From a virus: DNA of 58,050 bases. Location of the stretch: IMG/VR virus record IMGVR_UViG_3300035670_000246, positions 1 to 58,050 of that record, one strand, 5' to 3'. The translations under genes were made by a program, and so were the position numbers. Numbering within the stretch: the stretch's first letter is position 1; every line of letters starts with the position of its first letter. Shown here piece by piece: positions 6,354 through 52,166 of this stretch. The notes under the pieces were generated by a model, which saw only the letters and a list, made by a program, of their open reading frames with translations, had not been told where the DNA came from and ran no database searches.

Positions 6354-6989
6354 ATGGACATCTGGATCACGCTACGCGACGGCCGCACGGCACCCATGAC
6401 GGGTGTCACCGGAGTCACCTCCGTTGACACAGTCGGCACGGCCACGGAGTTCACGGGGGCGTCGATCACCAGTGGCAGCCCCAACGTCACGGTTGCCAGC
6501 ACCGCAGGCATCCGACCGGGCTCCAACGTCTATGGATCGGGCATCCCCACGGGAGCCACGGTCCTGTCGATCACCAGCGCCACGGTGTTCGTTCTTTCGG
6601 CCAACGCGACGGACACCATCGGCTCGCAGACGATCACGGTCACGACAGTGACTGACGCCGACCTCAAGCTGTTGACGGTCAACTCGGGGTGGTATCGGGA
6701 CATCTTCACACCGGACGGCATCCGGCTGGGGGCGCTCACGTCCGCCACGCTGGACACCATGACCGCCGCCCTCGTCTCGGACGTGTCCATCACGTCGCTG
6801 GAGCCGCCTACCGTGGAAGGCACGATCTCCACCTCCAACTCGGACGAGATCGGTCATGCCGCGCTGCGTCAGGCCACGTGGCTGGAGTCACTGTGGTGTT
6901 TCAGTTGCACTGTGGAAAGCGACACTCTTTCCTGCTACTACCGCAAGATCGACGTGATCGGCTGGTGCAACGTGGCACCGTCCCTCTGA
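6354..6989 (+). CDS. Probable virion protein
   Basis: 211 residues, rich in Thr, Ser, Gly and Val, with a beta-sandwich look. The stretch GIRPGSNVYGSGIPTGATV resembles repeats found in phage tail and receptor-binding proteins. The C-terminal 40 residues carry four cysteines (LWCFSCTVESDTLSCYY, then WC). No signal peptide. Located at the head of the virion gene block and followed by another structural-looking gene 12 bases later. Exact role not known. Confidence 0.5.
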   Translation: MDIWITLRDGRTAPMTGVTGVTSVDTVGTATEFTGASITSGSPNVTVASTAGIRPGSNVYGSGIPTGATVLSITSATVFVLSANATDTIGSQTITVTTVTDADLKLLTVNSGWYRDIFTPDGIRLGALTSATLDTMTAALVSDVSITSLEPPTVEGTISTSNSDEIGHAALRQATWLESLWCFSCTVESDTLSCYYRKIDVIGWCNVAPSL

Positions 6990-7001
6990 CCAACGTGACC
7001 C

Positions 7002-7802
7002 ATGGGAACGCCGATTGATTTCTACACGGTCAGCACGCCTAACCCGGCTGAGATCGCGTTCTACATCACGGTGGACGCCAACCAGCTCAACCCGGGCAAC
7101 GTGCCTGCGGTGGGAACTCCTTACAAACGGATCAACAACTCGTTCGTCAACCCGAGGGTCAATGAGTGCGGTTTCGGTGACTACGTGTACACCTACATGG
7201 CCCCCTCAGGCGACTCGTTGCAGTTGTTCTTCGGCAAGCCCAAGACCCAGGTCGAGAAGAACACGCCGTTTCGCACGGTGTACTCGACCAGGTATTACCC
7301 GTGGCCCCCGGTGCTGGAGGACCTGCGCATCCTCAAGACGACGGCCTTCCCGCAGTCGGTCTGGAACGGCACTGCCACGGTCACAGCGCCGCGCTACTTC
7401 CCGCGCTACCGCTACCGCCCGACGCCGAGCATCAACTCGGTCATCAAGATCGAGCAGTTCCTTGCGCCCACGCCCTACGACGGCCAGGCGTTGATCCACC
7501 CGCAGCCGACGCCCACGGAGGTCAGCGGCTACTATCTCGGCATGTCGGTCAGCTTCCCCAAGTGCCTGCACCCCAAGATCGTGCTCGATGAGAACATCCC
7601 GGGCGCGGTCGTGGTGGAGGGCCAGGGCACCGTGGACGTGCCGCGCACCAACAGCTCCACCAAGCAGGTGTTCCCGGCGACCAACTTCCTCGACTGGGCT
7701 CCTTTCATCCTGGAGGATCAGGTGCAGCCGGTCAGCGGCTTGTTCCTGCGCGAACGTGTCACCATCTACCCGCCGTTCCGGCCGCAGCCGATTGAGAGAT
7801 GA
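7002..7802 (+). CDS. Probable virion structural protein
   Basis: 266 residues, Pro/Tyr-rich with few charged residues and no membrane segment, consistent with a tail or decoration protein. No family recognised. It ends in GAGAGATGA, where the stop overlaps the first ATG of a 36-bp tandem repeat. Confidence 0.5.
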   Translation: MGTPIDFYTVSTPNPAEIAFYITVDANQLNPGNVPAVGTPYKRINNSFVNPRVNECGFGDYVYTYMAPSGDSLQLFFGKPKTQVEKNTPFRTVYSTRYYPWPPVLEDLRILKTTAFPQSVWNGTATVTAPRYFPRYRYRPTPSINSVIKIEQFLAPTPYDGQALIHPQPTPTEVSGYYLGMSVSFPKCLHPKIVLDENIPGAVVVEGQGTVDVPRTNSSTKQVFPATNFLDWAPFILEDQVQPVSGLFLRERVTIYPPFRPQPIER

Positions 7803-24312: not shown

Positions 24313-24875
24313 AACGACCACGCTATGAGAACGTGATGCCTCGCGGGGGCTGGAAATACACGGACCCGCTGACAGGTGTACGCATTGAGGACAATCATCT
24401 TGGGGCCGTGCTGGAGCGCGTGCGCCGTGCCTGGGCAGCCAACGAAGTCGAGCCGCCTCCGTCGTGGGAGGAAGAGATCATGGACTCCATGTGCCAGCAG
24501 AACCCTGACTTGGACTGTTTCGAGGTGGGCGAGGTCGAGCGCACGATCACCATGGACGACATCTGGCGCTTTGCCAAGACCGCACAGAAATGGCTCGAAG
24601 GTGGCGGCAAGTGGGTGGACGCTGAAGAGTCAGACCGTCGTGCGGCCATCTGTGCGCAGTGTCCCATGAACGTCGTGGTTCACGGATGCTGGGGGTGCCG
24701 TGGTGCGATCAAATGGCTGGCCGAGAGAGCCGGGATGCCGCCAGCCACTCAAAGTGAGGACAAGCTACAAAGCTGCAAGGTGTGCGGATGCTACAACAAG
24801 GTGGCGGTCCACATGCCTCTCGACGCAATGGATGTCACGGGTCTGGAGTTTCCAGAGGGGTGCTGGAAGAAGTAG
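24309..24875 (+). CDS. Cysteine-rich zinc-binding phage protein
   Basis: 188 residues. The C-terminal half carries CAQC, CWGC and CKVCGC clusters plus a last Cys, enough for two zinc sites; this kind of cysteine-rich protein is found near phage tail genes but its role is unknown. The N-terminal part has a motif GGWKYTDPLTGVRIEDNH. Start overlaps the giant gene's stop, so it is translated from the same message. Confidence 0.6.
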   Translation: MKRPRYENVMPRGGWKYTDPLTGVRIEDNHLGAVLERVRRAWAANEVEPPPSWEEEIMDSMCQQNPDLDCFEVGEVERTITMDDIWRFAKTAQKWLEGGGKWVDAEESDRRAAICAQCPMNVVVHGCWGCRGAIKWLAERAGMPPATQSEDKLQSCKVCGCYNKVAVHMPLDAMDVTGLEFPEGCWKK

Positions 24876-24955
24876 GAAAGGCCGGAATTGCACCGGCTAC
24901 TTGGCACCACTCGTAACTGACCTTGCCACAGGTATGTTTACGTTGAGGTTGCGTG
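24876..24955. terminator. Convergent intergenic hairpins
   Basis: Between two convergent genes. GCCGG (24881-24885) pairs with CCGGC (24893-24897) around a 7-base loop, and TGGCA/TGCCA and GCGTG/CACGC pairs lie to the right. No U tract on either strand. Probably a bidirectional termination or RNA 3' end region. Confidence 0.35.
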
Positions 24956-25114
24956 TCACTGTCCACGCCGCTTTCCTGTTTTCTTCTTTGGTTTCTTGCC
25001 GGTCTTCAGGGACATCCCGGTGATGCTCTGCGCGATGCGTGCCGCCGAGGCTTTGTTTTTGCCTTGGCGGAGCATCTCCTGATACACGTTATCGACTTCG
25101 GTTCCTTTGGGCAT
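24956..25114 (-). CDS. Small basic phage protein
   Basis: 52 residues starting MPKGTEVDNVYQEMLRQGKN and ending in a Lys/Arg tail (KKPKKKTGKRRG). The VYQEMLRQGKxKxSAARIAQ pattern is common in tiny phage proteins next to structural genes. It is last in the minus-strand sugar operon, 13 bases after its neighbour's stop. Confidence 0.65.
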   Translation of the reverse strand: MPKGTEVDNVYQEMLRQGKNKASAARIAQSITGMSLKTGKKPKKKTGKRRGQ

Positions 25115-47878: not shown

Positions 47879-49975
47879 TTAGTCCTTCAAATAGTATGGC
47901 ACCACCCCGCCTTTCGCCTTCACGGGCATGCCGTCCGCCCACGCGGGCAGGGTGGTAAGGTGCCGGTTGAGTTCGTCGATCACTTGCCCGGGCTTGAGGT
48001 AGCCGAGCCACTCGTCGTGAACCAGCGTGGCGGTCTCGTAGCCTGCCTTCTCGGCGTTCAAGCAGCCGATGCACATCACGTCGGTGGCGATGGCCTGAAC
48101 TTGATTCTCGACGGCGGAGCCGGGGGTCAGTTCGACGCGGGTGGAACTGGCCTTCGATTTTGTGCTGGTCTTGTATCCTTCAAACGTCAACGCCGCTTCC
48201 TTGTACCATGCCTTCGGGTCCACCTTTTGAGCGTGGCTTATTTCGTCGTCGGTGGGTGAGAAGACCTTGAAGAACTTGCCCTTCTCGGACCACTGCAACA
48301 CCGGCTCGATCTTGCAGTGAGGGTAGGCGAGGTTACGCCCGCTCGGCAACTTGCAGAACAGAAACTGGATGCCCGCCACCTTCATGCTGAAGTAACACAC
48401 GTCGTGGCGCACGTTGAACTTCCCACCGGGGTTCCTCACAGCGGCCTCGGCCTGCCGGATGGACCGCCACCAGTAGTTCACGATGTTCGGGTTGGCGTCC
48501 CTCCACTTGGAAACGATGTCGGGAAGCTCGTCTTTCTTGAGGCCCATCTTCAAAGCCCCCATGACTTCGAGAGCGCCCGTGCCCCCCTGAAACTGCAATG
48601 CAAGCTCACTTATCTTCGCTTTTTGCCGGAGATGTTTGGTGACTTCCTCTAGTGGGACCTTGAACATTTCAGAGGCGCTGGACTCGTAAATCTTGCCGTG
48701 AGTGCGGAACACCTCAAGCCTCCATTCTTCCTCAGCCAAGTGAGACATGACCACGGCCTCGATTGCCGTGTAGTCGGAGTTGAGCATCGGACCCGCTGGA
48801 TCGTGGATGAAGTGCCGGATGCACGATCCCACGGCTTCGATGACCGGACCGTACATCAGTTCGATCTCATCACGTGACGCACGGGCGCAGATCAGGTCGT
48901 AGATGTCCTTGGTGTGGGCCTCCAGGTGCGCCGAGGGCTTCTTCATGTTCTGCGGCTGGACCAACCGGCCCGCAAAGCGTCCCGTGCGGACAGCGCCGTA
49001 GTACATCAGGGTGCCCCGCACGCGCCCGTCATCACAGACCGTGTCCAGGATCGACGGCAGCTTCGCCACAGAAGAGAACGACACCTGTTTCTTGAGCGTC
49101 AGGGCGCGGCCGGTCGGCGTGCTGTCGTCGAACGTCTCAGCCTGAAGCGCCTCATCCACCGTGGCGGCACGCATGTTTTTGATCGGTGCCCCGTTGGCGC
49201 GGAGCCACTCGATGAACTTGTCACGTTGCGTCGGGTTCAGCCCGGTGATCCGCGTGAACTCCTCGTTGATCGCCGCCGTGGCTTCCTGCACCAATTGGTC
49301 GGCGTAACGCACGGCCTCGACGTTCACAGGCAGGCCACGTGTGTTGATGGCGATCTCCATCTGGAACGTGTCCAAGGCAAAACCCTTCAACTCAAAAGCC
49401 CTCAAAGCCGAGTGAATTTCCTGCTCGACGCGGTCGTCCTGGCGACAGTACTCACAGAACTTCTTGAACTCGGCTCCGTTGTGTTTGGGTTCGTTGAATT
49501 TCCCACTCTTCTTGTCGGGAATGGACAACAGGTTGATCAGACGCCAGCCGCTGTTGTCCTTCTGCTGGCGCAGCCCGAGCGCGGCGGCACAGTCCTTCAG
49601 TGAAAAAGGCAGGCCTGCACGTCTCGCCATGGCTGCGGTGCAGCGCCAGCGGCGGTGGTCGATGCCCTTTCCGAACAGCTTCGACAGCACGTACATCGTG
49701 ACCGCGTGCTCGAACTGGGCGTTGTGGGCATAGACAGGCTCCTCGTTGTCCAGCATCTCGCGCATCAGCGCGTCGGCACCAGGGTCGCTCTTGACTGTCA
49801 CACCCCACTCATCGGTGAAGTGAAACTTGGGGTTCACCCAAAGCAGAGGCTGCCCGTTGTCCTTCGCCACGGCTGCGCAGAAAATCTCCGTCGAAGCGTC
49901 TGCGGCGTATCGAAAAGCCCCGACCGTCTTGATGTCGGCACGGGATCGGGTTTCGTAGTCCAGATGGTATGGCAT
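47879..49975 (-). CDS. Family A DNA polymerase
   Basis: 698 residues from MPYHLDYETRSRAD. The 3'-5' exonuclease motifs are LDYETRS near residue 6, YAHNAQFEHA and YCRQDDRVEQE. Polymerase motif A is LNSDYTAIEAVV near 398 (the usual Arg after EA is Val), motif B KAKISELALQFQGGTGAL, and motif C VHDEW near 652. It replicates the phage DNA. The start lies 13 bases after the CCA end of a tRNA gene. Confidence 0.85.
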   Translation of the reverse strand: MPYHLDYETRSRADIKTVGAFRYAADASTEIFCAAVAKDNGQPLLWVNPKFHFTDEWGVTVKSDPGADALMREMLDNEEPVYAHNAQFEHAVTMYVLSKLFGKGIDHRRWRCTAAMARRAGLPFSLKDCAAALGLRQQKDNSGWRLINLLSIPDKKSGKFNEPKHNGAEFKKFCEYCRQDDRVEQEIHSALRAFELKGFALDTFQMEIAINTRGLPVNVEAVRYADQLVQEATAAINEEFTRITGLNPTQRDKFIEWLRANGAPIKNMRAATVDEALQAETFDDSTPTGRALTLKKQVSFSSVAKLPSILDTVCDDGRVRGTLMYYGAVRTGRFAGRLVQPQNMKKPSAHLEAHTKDIYDLICARASRDEIELMYGPVIEAVGSCIRHFIHDPAGPMLNSDYTAIEAVVMSHLAEEEWRLEVFRTHGKIYESSASEMFKVPLEEVTKHLRQKAKISELALQFQGGTGALEVMGALKMGLKKDELPDIVSKWRDANPNIVNYWWRSIRQAEAAVRNPGGKFNVRHDVCYFSMKVAGIQFLFCKLPSGRNLAYPHCKIEPVLQWSEKGKFFKVFSPTDDEISHAQKVDPKAWYKEAALTFEGYKTSTKSKASSTRVELTPGSAVENQVQAIATDVMCIGCLNAEKAGYETATLVHDEWLGYLKPGQVIDELNRHLTTLPAWADGMPVKAKGGVVPYYLKD

Positions 49976-49988
49976 GTTTATCGGGAGG

Positions 49989-50099
49989 TGGTGATAGCGG
50001 GTGGATTTGAACCACCACTGCACGCGGTATCCTTTCGGCTGGTTGTACAGGGAAACAGGCTCATGAGGCCTGCGCGTCTTTACATTTCGCCACGCTATC
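49989..50099 (-). tRNA. Class II tRNA-like gene, anticodon CAU, long variable arm
   Basis: 111 bases with CCA encoded. Minus-strand acceptor GATAGCG pairs with CGCTATC, followed by A and CCA. The D arm (GCG/CGC) sits in a Leu-type frame TGGCGAAATG..ACGCGC. The anticodon arm CAGGC-CTCATGA-GCCTG has U33 and anticodon CAU. The T arm GGTGG-TTCAAAT-CCACC is canonical. The variable region is 39 bases, with a CTGTAC/GTGCAG stem. The D loop lacks the usual GG. Met, Ile (lysidine) or a mis-assigned Leu are possible identities. Confidence 0.75.
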
Positions 50100-50110
50100 A
50101 TTTTGAGGGG

Positions 50111-50239
50111 TTGCCTGCCGCCGCAAGAGTGGTGCCGTTACTGCGTCACCGGGTCAGCCCCGTGCTCTCTTGCGCTTGTCGGTTGCGTTGGATTTATGGG
50201 CACCAACATCGCTTCGGCCAGCACAGGCACGGCAGGCAA
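50111..50239 (-). ncRNA. Candidate structured RNA between SSB gene and tRNA
   Basis: No gene is present. A 10-bp outer pair (50111-50120 with 50230-50239), an 8-bp inner pair (50122-50129 with 50167-50174), a GTTGG/CCAAC hairpin (187-191/203-207 of 50,000) and small CGGG/CCCG and GGTG/CACC hairpins fit a three-way junction. It could also be a double terminator. Confidence 0.4.
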
Positions 50240-50245
50240 AGTTGT

Positions 50246-50890
50246 TCAGATGTCGTCGTTGGAAGGCGACAGGTCGTCCTCGTCACCGAGGCCAGCGAAC
50301 TCCTTGTCAGCGTCCACCGGACCGGCACCAAACGCCTCGCCGTCCTTGTCGAACATCACCGCTCGCAGCTCGGCGCAGACGCGTTTGCCGAAGTCGTTGT
50401 CCATCGGCCACAGGCGAACGGACGCGTTCACGTAACAGCCGCTGTACGGACTCTCGGAGGTGCCCGGGCCGACATCGACACGCTTGCGGTTGACCACCTT
50501 GGGCTTGCGGTCGGCCTTGGCGCTGGAACTGATGAACATCACGTCGGGGCCGTAGCCATCCTTGCCGTCGAGGTCCTCGCCGTCACGGAAACAGATGCCA
50601 CTGAGCACCACGGTGCCGCTGTCACCCTGTTGCAGAACTTCGTTGGTGCCTTTGACTTTGACGGTTTTGCCTTTCCACTTGTCCATCCCGGACACGACGC
50701 GCCGGATGGCCTGCTTGATGATCTTCACCTGCGGGTCGTCCTTGCGCAGGATGAAGTTGGCGGAGTAGGACTCCTTGCTGCTGCCGTCGTCACCTTTGTT
50801 GGTGCGCGGCTTGTAGATGCTTTCGTAGCTGAGGCGGACGCCTTTGAGCACGACGATGTTCTGGTCCTGCGGTTTCTTCTGGTCACTCAT
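50246..50890 (-). CDS. ssDNA-binding protein (DUF2815)
   Basis: 214 residues. VVLKGVRLSYESIYKPR, SYSANFILRKDDPQ, VMFISSSAKADRKPKVVNRK and an acidic C-terminal tail (GDEDDLSPSNDDI) match the DUF2815 phage SSB. The acidic tail suggests it recruits partners. It lies in the replication block with DUF2800 upstream. Confidence 0.85.
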   Translation of the reverse strand: MSDQKKPQDQNIVVLKGVRLSYESIYKPRTNKGDDGSSKESYSANFILRKDDPQVKIIKQAIRRVVSGMDKWKGKTVKVKGTNEVLQQGDSGTVVLSGICFRDGEDLDGKDGYGPDVMFISSSAKADRKPKVVNRKRVDVGPGTSESPYSGCYVNASVRLWPMDNDFGKRVCAELRAVMFDKDGEAFGAGPVDADKEFAGLGDEDDLSPSNDDI

Positions 50891-50954
50891 GGTGTTGTCT
50901 GGTTTCTCGGTTTCTCGGTTTCGACGCCCCGGGGTGGAGCGTTCGGAAAGTGTT

Positions 50955-52166
50955 TCACACAAACTCGTCGGTGTCAACCATATCATCGAAATCTTTCGAC
51001 GCGTCATCGACGTGCGCGGGACGTGGATCGTTCTCGGGCACCACGATGGGTGAGCCGGGTGGCTTGACCATGAGCTGGTTCATCTCGATGATCTTCGGAC
51101 CCTTCTTGCCTTTGGTCGCCTTCTCGGCCTGGGCTGGCGAGATGATGTCCACGGAGTGAATCTCATCCCACGAGAGGCCCAACCCGGTGAGCACCTTCTC
51201 AGCGGCGGACTCGTCCGTCCAGCGACGGTGCCCACCCTTGGACAGCACGACCTTGAGGCCCTTCATCGGTTTGCCGGACAGCGCCATGCCCTGCACGTGT
51301 TCACGGATCACCTTGATGAGTTCCTCAACCTTGTCGAGGGTCGGGTATAGCTCCGCCAGCCGGTCGTTGCTGAATGACGTGATCTCCGGCACCTCTGCCT
51401 GTTGCGTGAACGTGGGAACAATCTCGTCGAAGTCGCTCAGCATGGAGCGGTTGTACGCCTCGCACTTGGCCTGGGCACGGCAGAACTTGCAGATTTTCTC
51501 ACTGGCTTTGAACACCAGCGTCGGGGCCTCACCCAGAATGTCCTTGGCCGCCTGGGTCACGTAACGGTCGGTGAACTCGCGCAACTCTTTCCACGTGACG
51601 CTCCACGTCACTGTTTCGTTAGGCAGGCGAGGCTGGAAGATGGTCATGGTGACCTTGGTGTCGTCTCGTGCCTCCCAGAGGACCGGGTCAATGAGGCCGG
51701 ACTCAATCAGGCTGCGGGCATAGATCGCCATCTGGCGGTTCTCGGTGGACTCAACCTCACCGTAGCCGAACTTGTAGTCCACCAGATGCAGTCCGCGACG
51801 ATTGATGCACCAGAAATCCACGGTCCCTTTCTCAGTGGGCAGGTAGTAAAGAGGGATACGCGACTCGATGCCGACAGCAACAATCTGGCTCTTGTGCCCC
51901 ATGACCTCGGTGCAGAAGTCGTGGTAACCGCGTCCATGCTCCAGCATTTCCCGGGTGGCGTTTGCCGGGGGCCTTTCACCCTTGAGCATCGCCTCACAGA
52001 CGGAGTGGGCCAGGGTGCCTTCAATGGCAGCCTTGCCAACACGTTCGGGAGGAAGTTCTCCTGCGGCGTCGAGCTGGCGGATGTATCCGAGGGCGGCTGT
52101 GCATTCGGTCCAGGTGTGGGCTTTGGACGGCGAAAGACGTGAGTGGGCTGGGGCGGAATCGGTCAT
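50955..52166 (-). CDS. Cas4/RecB-like exonuclease (DUF2800)
   Basis: 403 residues. EGTLAHSVCEAMLKGE, TVDFWCINRRGLHLVDYKFG and ICKFCRAQAKCEAY (Fe-S cysteines) fit the DUF2800 PD-(D/E)XK exonuclease used in phage recombination. Followed by SSB 64 bases later. Confidence 0.85.
   Translation of the reverse strand: MTDSAPAHSRLSPSKAHTWTECTAALGYIRQLDAAGELPPERVGKAAIEGTLAHSVCEAMLKGERPPANATREMLEHGRGYHDFCTEVMGHKSQIVAVGIESRIPLYYLPTEKGTVDFWCINRRGLHLVDYKFGYGEVESTENRQMAIYARSLIESGLIDPVLWEARDDTKVTMTIFQPRLPNETVTWSVTWKELREFTDRYVTQAAKDILGEAPTLVFKASEKICKFCRAQAKCEAYNRSMLSDFDEIVPTFTQQAEVPEITSFSNDRLAELYPTLDKVEELIKVIREHVQGMALSGKPMKGLKVVLSKGGHRRWTDESAAEKVLTGLGLSWDEIHSVDIISPAQAEKATKGKKGPKIIEMNQLMVKPPGSPIVVPENDPRPAHVDDASKDFDDMVDTDEFV

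Follow-up and report, generated by a model that had tools for sequence, protein, structure and literature searches.

The tRNA-like element that lies between an ssDNA-binding protein gene (ssb) and a DNA polymerase gene (polA) in the analysed virus DNA is best explained, with a probability of about 47%, as a tRNA mimic that does not decode, a reading we consider likelier than that of a tRNA reassigning AUG. It falls into a group of phage tRNA-like RNAs which keep tRNA ends and an elbow, usually without an anticodon arm, and which is apparently widespread and undescribed. The window, i.e. the whole stretch of 58,050 nucleotides analysed here, is an entire linear IMG/VR virus record (IMGVR_UViG_3300035670_000246) and may be incomplete; its features are collected in Table 1, and loci elsewhere are referred to by L numbers.

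On the minus strand the element reads GATAGCG-TG-GCG-AAATGTAAAGA-CGC-G-CAGGC-CTCATGA-GCCTG-(39 nt)-GGTGG-TTCAAAT-CCACC-CGCTATC-A-CCA, the D arm being GCG-AAATGTAAAGA-CGC. The first-pass annotation had described a Leu-type tRNA scaffold with good arms, a CAU anticodon, a 39-nt variable region, a D loop without GG, U33 and an encoded CCA, and each of these details can be read in the sequence, with all acceptor (7/7), T-arm (5/5) and anticodon-arm (5/5) pairs formed. Covariance-model scoring, where a poor value had been named as grounds for rejection, returned 49.4 bits from the Rfam tRNA model RF00005 against a gathering threshold of 29 (E = 3e-11, 58 kb record), the sole match of that model across the record. 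ARAGORN and cmscan with fast filters both missed the element, a failure presumably due to the long insert. The MFE fold of the RNA was near the cloverleaf (-37.6 kcal/mol, z = -2.65), and none of 300 shuffled interiors produced an anticodon stem with 5/5 pairs, a loop of 7 nt and U33; chance is a poor explanation for the intact CAU arm. G18-G19 is absent from the D loop, whereas GG was present in the D region of 474 of the 481 strict cloverleaves at the examined loci. A few strict cloverleaves there combine AATGTA-type GG-less D loops with ordinary anticodon arms, so the missing GG is no bar to decoding.

Table 1. Positions of the tRNA-like element, its parts, the flanking genes and a second element in the window
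Feature	Position	Strand	Basis
tRNA-like RNA, 111 nt	50099-49989	minus	sequence, Rfam RF00005, model R1
Acceptor GATAGCG/CGCTATC, 7/7 pairs	50099-50093 / 49999-49993	minus	read from sequence
A73; encoded CCA	49992; 49991-49989	minus	read from sequence
T8-G9 and D arm TGGCGAAATGTAAAGACGC, loop without GG	50074..50092	minus	pattern scan, sequence
Anticodon arm CAGGC-CTCATGA-GCCTG, 5/5 pairs, 7-nt loop, U33, G37	50056..50072	minus	sequence
CAU anticodon	50065-50063	minus	sequence
Variable region, 39 nt	50017..50055	minus	sequence and MFE fold
Variable-region stem CTGTAC/GTGCAG, 6 bp, one G-U	50050-50045 / 50023-50018	minus	sequence and MFE fold
T arm GGTGG-TTCAAAT-CCACC, 5/5	50000..50016	minus	sequence
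Family A DNA polymerase, downstream gene	47879..49975	minus	Pfam DNA_pol_A 1.1e-12; start from alignment to relatives
Enc34-type ssDNA-binding protein, upstream gene	50246..51007	minus	Pfam PF10991 4.3e-29
Second tRNA-like element, another type	24873..24977	minus	scan; shared with L231, L233, L237

Scanning IMG/VR with the pattern GTGGCGRAATGTNAAGACG, a search that gives exact matches only, located the unusual D arm of the element (TGGCGRAATGTAAAGACGC) in 30 contigs other than the window. Not counting the window's own, 23 distinct elements are completed by an acceptor and T arm that match. The window element itself carries the features that define this family, namely the D arm TGGCGRAATGNAAAGACGC with a covarying acceptor and T arm. 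The usual acceptor is GAGCGCG/CGCGCTC (7 bp) and the usual T arm GCAGG-TTCAAAT-CCTGC, while the interior is hypervariable, spans 32-174 nt, differs between phages and nearly always lacks an anticodon arm. The L210 element closes with a T loop TTTAAAT, outside the script's acceptance, one L216 copy fails to close and L213 is uncertain; some elements stand in tRNA arrays (L212, L306, L277). Acceptor pairing was complete (168/168) in 24 elements including the window, against a mean of 136 and a maximum of 152 in 1000 shuffles of the 3′ partners; in a count over 18 sequences 99.3% of cells were paired, seven pairs had changed on both sides, and 0 of 500 shuffles reached as high. Scanning from the T-arm side added 18 loci. 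In 16 of these a 5′ acceptor closes the structure; their D stems vary in sequence, and most again lack an anticodon arm. The resemblance of the family D arm to that of tRNA-Leu suggests descent from a tRNA-Leu. The window copy departs from its family in having the 5/5 CAU arm: 38 of the 39 other members lack a 5/5 arm with U33, the single member with a 5/5 stem, 7-nt loop and U33 comparing with ∼0.16 expected by chance, and four of the 39 have at least 4/5 stem pairs versus ∼1.5 expected. An anticodon-loop intron was discarded, the interiors showing by eye no consistent split anticodon stem, and so was a tmRNA, for which Rfam gave no match at the position of the element; the L203 phage encodes a separate tmRNA.

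Membership was also examined with a covariance model (R1) built from 18 trimmed family members, the window left out, which recovered the window element over its full length with 38.0 bits (E 5e-8, 376 kb). An ordinary tRNA-Leu(UAA) in L228, whose D arm is similar to that of the window element, scored 32.4 bits, only moderately below, so the R1 score alone is no proof of membership; with filters off, the window match split into two local ones (28.6 and 19.6 bits) because the interior was scored as insertion. Membership therefore rests less on the score than on the 19-nt D arm in common and on the slot of the L142 element, described below.

That phage tRNA-like RNAs have commonly lost the anticodon region follows from the pattern searches, which do not tell the function of these RNAs. 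A second IMG/VR pattern, in which 6-18 nt separate a normal D arm from the downstream T-arm motif, yielded 117 stretches; 71 of 93 distinct ones passed the inclusion thresholds (acceptor at least 6/7, T stem at least 4/5) and possess acceptor, D and T arms with a linker of 6-15 nt, most commonly 8 nt, in place of the anticodon arm. In the 70 elements counted, 478 of 490 acceptor pairs were formed, compared with a shuffled mean of 230 and maximum of 267. The cultured Polaribacter phage Danklef_1 carries one, annotated as ‘tRNA-OTHER, Undet (NNN)’. The window holds an additional tRNA-like element of another type, with acceptor AGGAAAG/CTTTCCT, a 5-bp D-like hairpin and T loop TGCAATT (fold z -1.7), and with neither a canonical anticodon arm nor an encoded CCA; the Rfam tRNA model had no match there, and in L231, L233 and L237 its D-like and T arms are kept while the acceptors differ. 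The minus strand of L231 (6260-7250) has small ORFs flanked by repeats of a single tRNA-like element; an ORF interrupts one of the copies, an arrangement that looks like gene insertion at the element.

The anticodon arm of the window copy is the feature for which decoding has to be weighed, and because it is intact and poorly explained by chance, decoding keeps about a quarter of the probability. MetRS could charge the element by way of CAU and A73, with AUG then read in the normal manner; as a working class II elongator tRNA-Met the element would top up the host pool, an account we regard as rather unlikely. The intact CAU arm with U33, A73 and CCA fits it, as do the dozens of strict class II CAU tRNAs in phages and the few otherwise ordinary cloverleaves that also have GG-less D loops, whereas most RNAs with the same D arm are devoid of an anticodon arm, and position 37 is G instead of A. 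At least 42 strict class II CAU tRNAs were counted in phages (loci L006-L124, e.g. L009, L024, L031, L068 and L114), and 41 of 42 have the loop CTCATAA with A37 as against CTCATGA with G37 in the window. From the t6A37/TilS argument, G37 is odd beside an anticodon with U36. Twenty-two of these tRNAs have a 1:72 mismatch (15 T:T), and eight of the 22, with a GGG:CCC anticodon stem as well, are by their sequence initiator-like tRNAs with a long variable arm. The window element has G1-C72 and the stem CAGGC/GCCTG in place of the initiator's 1:72 mismatch and three G:C pairs (29-31:39-41). Nor does it have the CTCATAA loop of lysidine-type tRNA-Ile2, and from tRNA-Leu it shares the class II variable arm, at 39 nt longer than usual, with the anticodon CAU in place of NAG or YAA.

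That the tRNA might insert an unexpected amino acid at AUG or AUA, as the first-pass annotation had proposed, found no support, given that the RNAs sharing its D arm mostly lack an anticodon arm, AUA is rare and G37 is present. The suggested check of AUA use, made on 17 large ORFs of the window, counted 17 AUA among 448 codons for Ile, therefore little codon demand. LeuRS does not need the anticodon, and the Leu-type D stem and long variable arm would suit a tRNA accepting Leu, or Ile through lysidine at C34, and reading AUG or AUA unconventionally. Charging by LeuRS could thus be imagined by analogy with the nev-tRNAs of nematodes, class II tRNAs with class I anticodons, among which nev-tRNAGly is charged with Leu (PMC4033280). 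Against this, AUG read as Leu would harm all proteins. Because AUA is rare and the loop is unlike that of CAU-Ile tRNAs, Leu or Ile decoding is the least likely of the decoding readings and improbable overall. Of the Leu-type description, the D stem, the class II features and the intact CAU loop stand, and as the best reading of the element it gives way before the anticodon-poor relatives.

The position of the element recurs as well. In the window, ssb, the element and the polymerase gene are all on the minus strand, with the polymerase start codon 13 nt past the CCA; a long ORF call that extends across the tRNA as far as an ATG at 50101 is incidental, as the polymerases of relatives align from the ATG at 49975. 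The material covered 60 polymerase loci and nine relatives with ∼50% identity in the adjacent DUF2800 protein, and the ssb-polA region holds tRNA-like elements in the L126 group, L130, L141, L142, L149, L150, L153 and L168, while in L186 and L002 one lies a gene upstream of this slot; many other relatives have no element in the region. Matches of the tRNA model in the relatives' genomes mostly fall on these elements. Acceptor and T arm are perfect in L130, with GG in the D arm and a degenerate anticodon arm, and in the L126 group, where several other hairpins replace the anticodon arm; L142 combines the window's D arm with an interior of 95 nt, L141 has a near-ordinary anticodon arm with CAA, and L168 consists of acceptor, D arm, a 7-nt linker, T arm and ACCA, followed 4 nt later by the polymerase ATG.

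RNase P reads the acceptor/T stack, and the element could serve as tRNA punctuation, where RNase P and 3′ processing would split the ssb and polA messages and set the polA mRNA 5′ end 13 nt before the ATG. The many relatives with an element in the ssb-polA slot, the 4-nt spacing in L168 and the acceptor/T stack itself accord with this possibility, to which we give a minor share. Over the whole set, however, the spacing to the following ORF hardly departs from background, which also counts against the mimic reading: proximity is only mildly raised in the window's group (16 of 38 within 50 nt versus 26%) and at background in the set without anticodon arm (19 of 65 within 30 nt versus 30%). That the element is a prophage attachment site or the remnant of a tRNA is disfavoured and very improbable. 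tRNA 3′ ends are often attachment sites, and an element in lactococcal phages lies near record ends, a possible att position; misannotated tRNA fragments are also frequent (PMC9897764). Yet an attachment site has no need of a full covarying 5′ half, no integrase (PF00589) matched in the window record, and only one of 35 records of the window's group passed the integrase cut-off.

Upstream of the element, window positions 50108-50242 contain strong inverted repeats (TTGCCTGCCG/CGGCAGGCAA) that enclose a further stem of 7-8 bp. This region folds at -56.5 kcal/mol (z -2.2), and its 5′ motif CCTGCCG...TGTGCTG...CGAA recurs in L231 and L141. A short hairpin motif, GGGC-AACCTGC...GTGGTGGCCCACCAATTT, stands ahead of genes in L170, L171, L172, L180, L126 and L146, and the polymerase gene of L125 has an in-frame insertion of ∼930 bp (6370-7304), possibly an intein. 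A polymerase search of genome contigs for host identification gave one weak MAG match (L224), and the 301-nt tRNA region had short chance-level matches only against named phages.

tRNA mimicry without decoding has precedents in the 3′ tRNA-like structures of viruses and in the bacterial YrlA Y RNAs. The plant-virus elements, however, lie at genome 3′ ends and YrlA is of other architecture, and Rfam scans of the window element and 11 family loci found no match to a viral tRNA-like or YrlA-type family. With ordinary phage tRNAs, including class II tRNA-Leu, the window's group has in common the acceptor, Leu-type D stem, T arm, CCA and some arrays, but the window element differs in its GG-less D loop, 39-nt variable region and relatives without anticodon arms. 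It resembles nev-tRNAs in pairing a long variable arm with the anticodon of another class. The pseudo-tRNA tRNAOther of Bacillus cereus, tRNA-shaped and reported as non-functional in translation (PMC3399842), is chromosomal and is likened to the window element by description. Armless tRNAs of metazoan mitochondria demonstrate that whole arms are dispensable (PMC4033280), but there it is the D or T arm that is missing and the anticodon arm that persists, the reverse of the phage group. No description of phage RNAs without an anticodon arm was found in the open-licence literature, which is weak evidence of absence.

As its group keeps the acceptor, T and D parts while the anticodon region is variable or lost, the window element most likely works not by decoding but by passing for a tRNA. 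As a non-decoding mimic, it would be transcribed together with ssb and polA, the replication genes on either side, and host tRNA-processing enzymes would probably release a CCA-ended RNA with the acceptor/T-arm stack and elbow. This RNA would serve as a decoy or sponge, binding host proteins that recognise tRNAs by the acceptor and elbow, candidate partners being tRNA-targeting defence nucleases or toxins and tRNA-modifying or charging enzymes. Defences that attack tRNAs are known, such as anticodon nucleases (PMC10264068) and Septu, which acts on tRNA-Tyr (PMC13096335), and a decoy is therefore a natural idea; no link between the elements and any defence system was found in this analysis. More generally, and tentatively, we propose at somewhat less than even odds that phages broadly encode free-standing mimics with acceptor, D and T arms and without an anticodon arm, which would act by occupying host tRNA-binding proteins in infection, the CAU copy of the window being one in which the arm was kept or re-formed. 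If true, some phage ‘tRNA genes’, above all those annotated as undetermined or missed because of long inserts, would not be for codon supply, and with a covarying group that has no anticodon arms, the question of why phages carry tRNAs would become directly testable.
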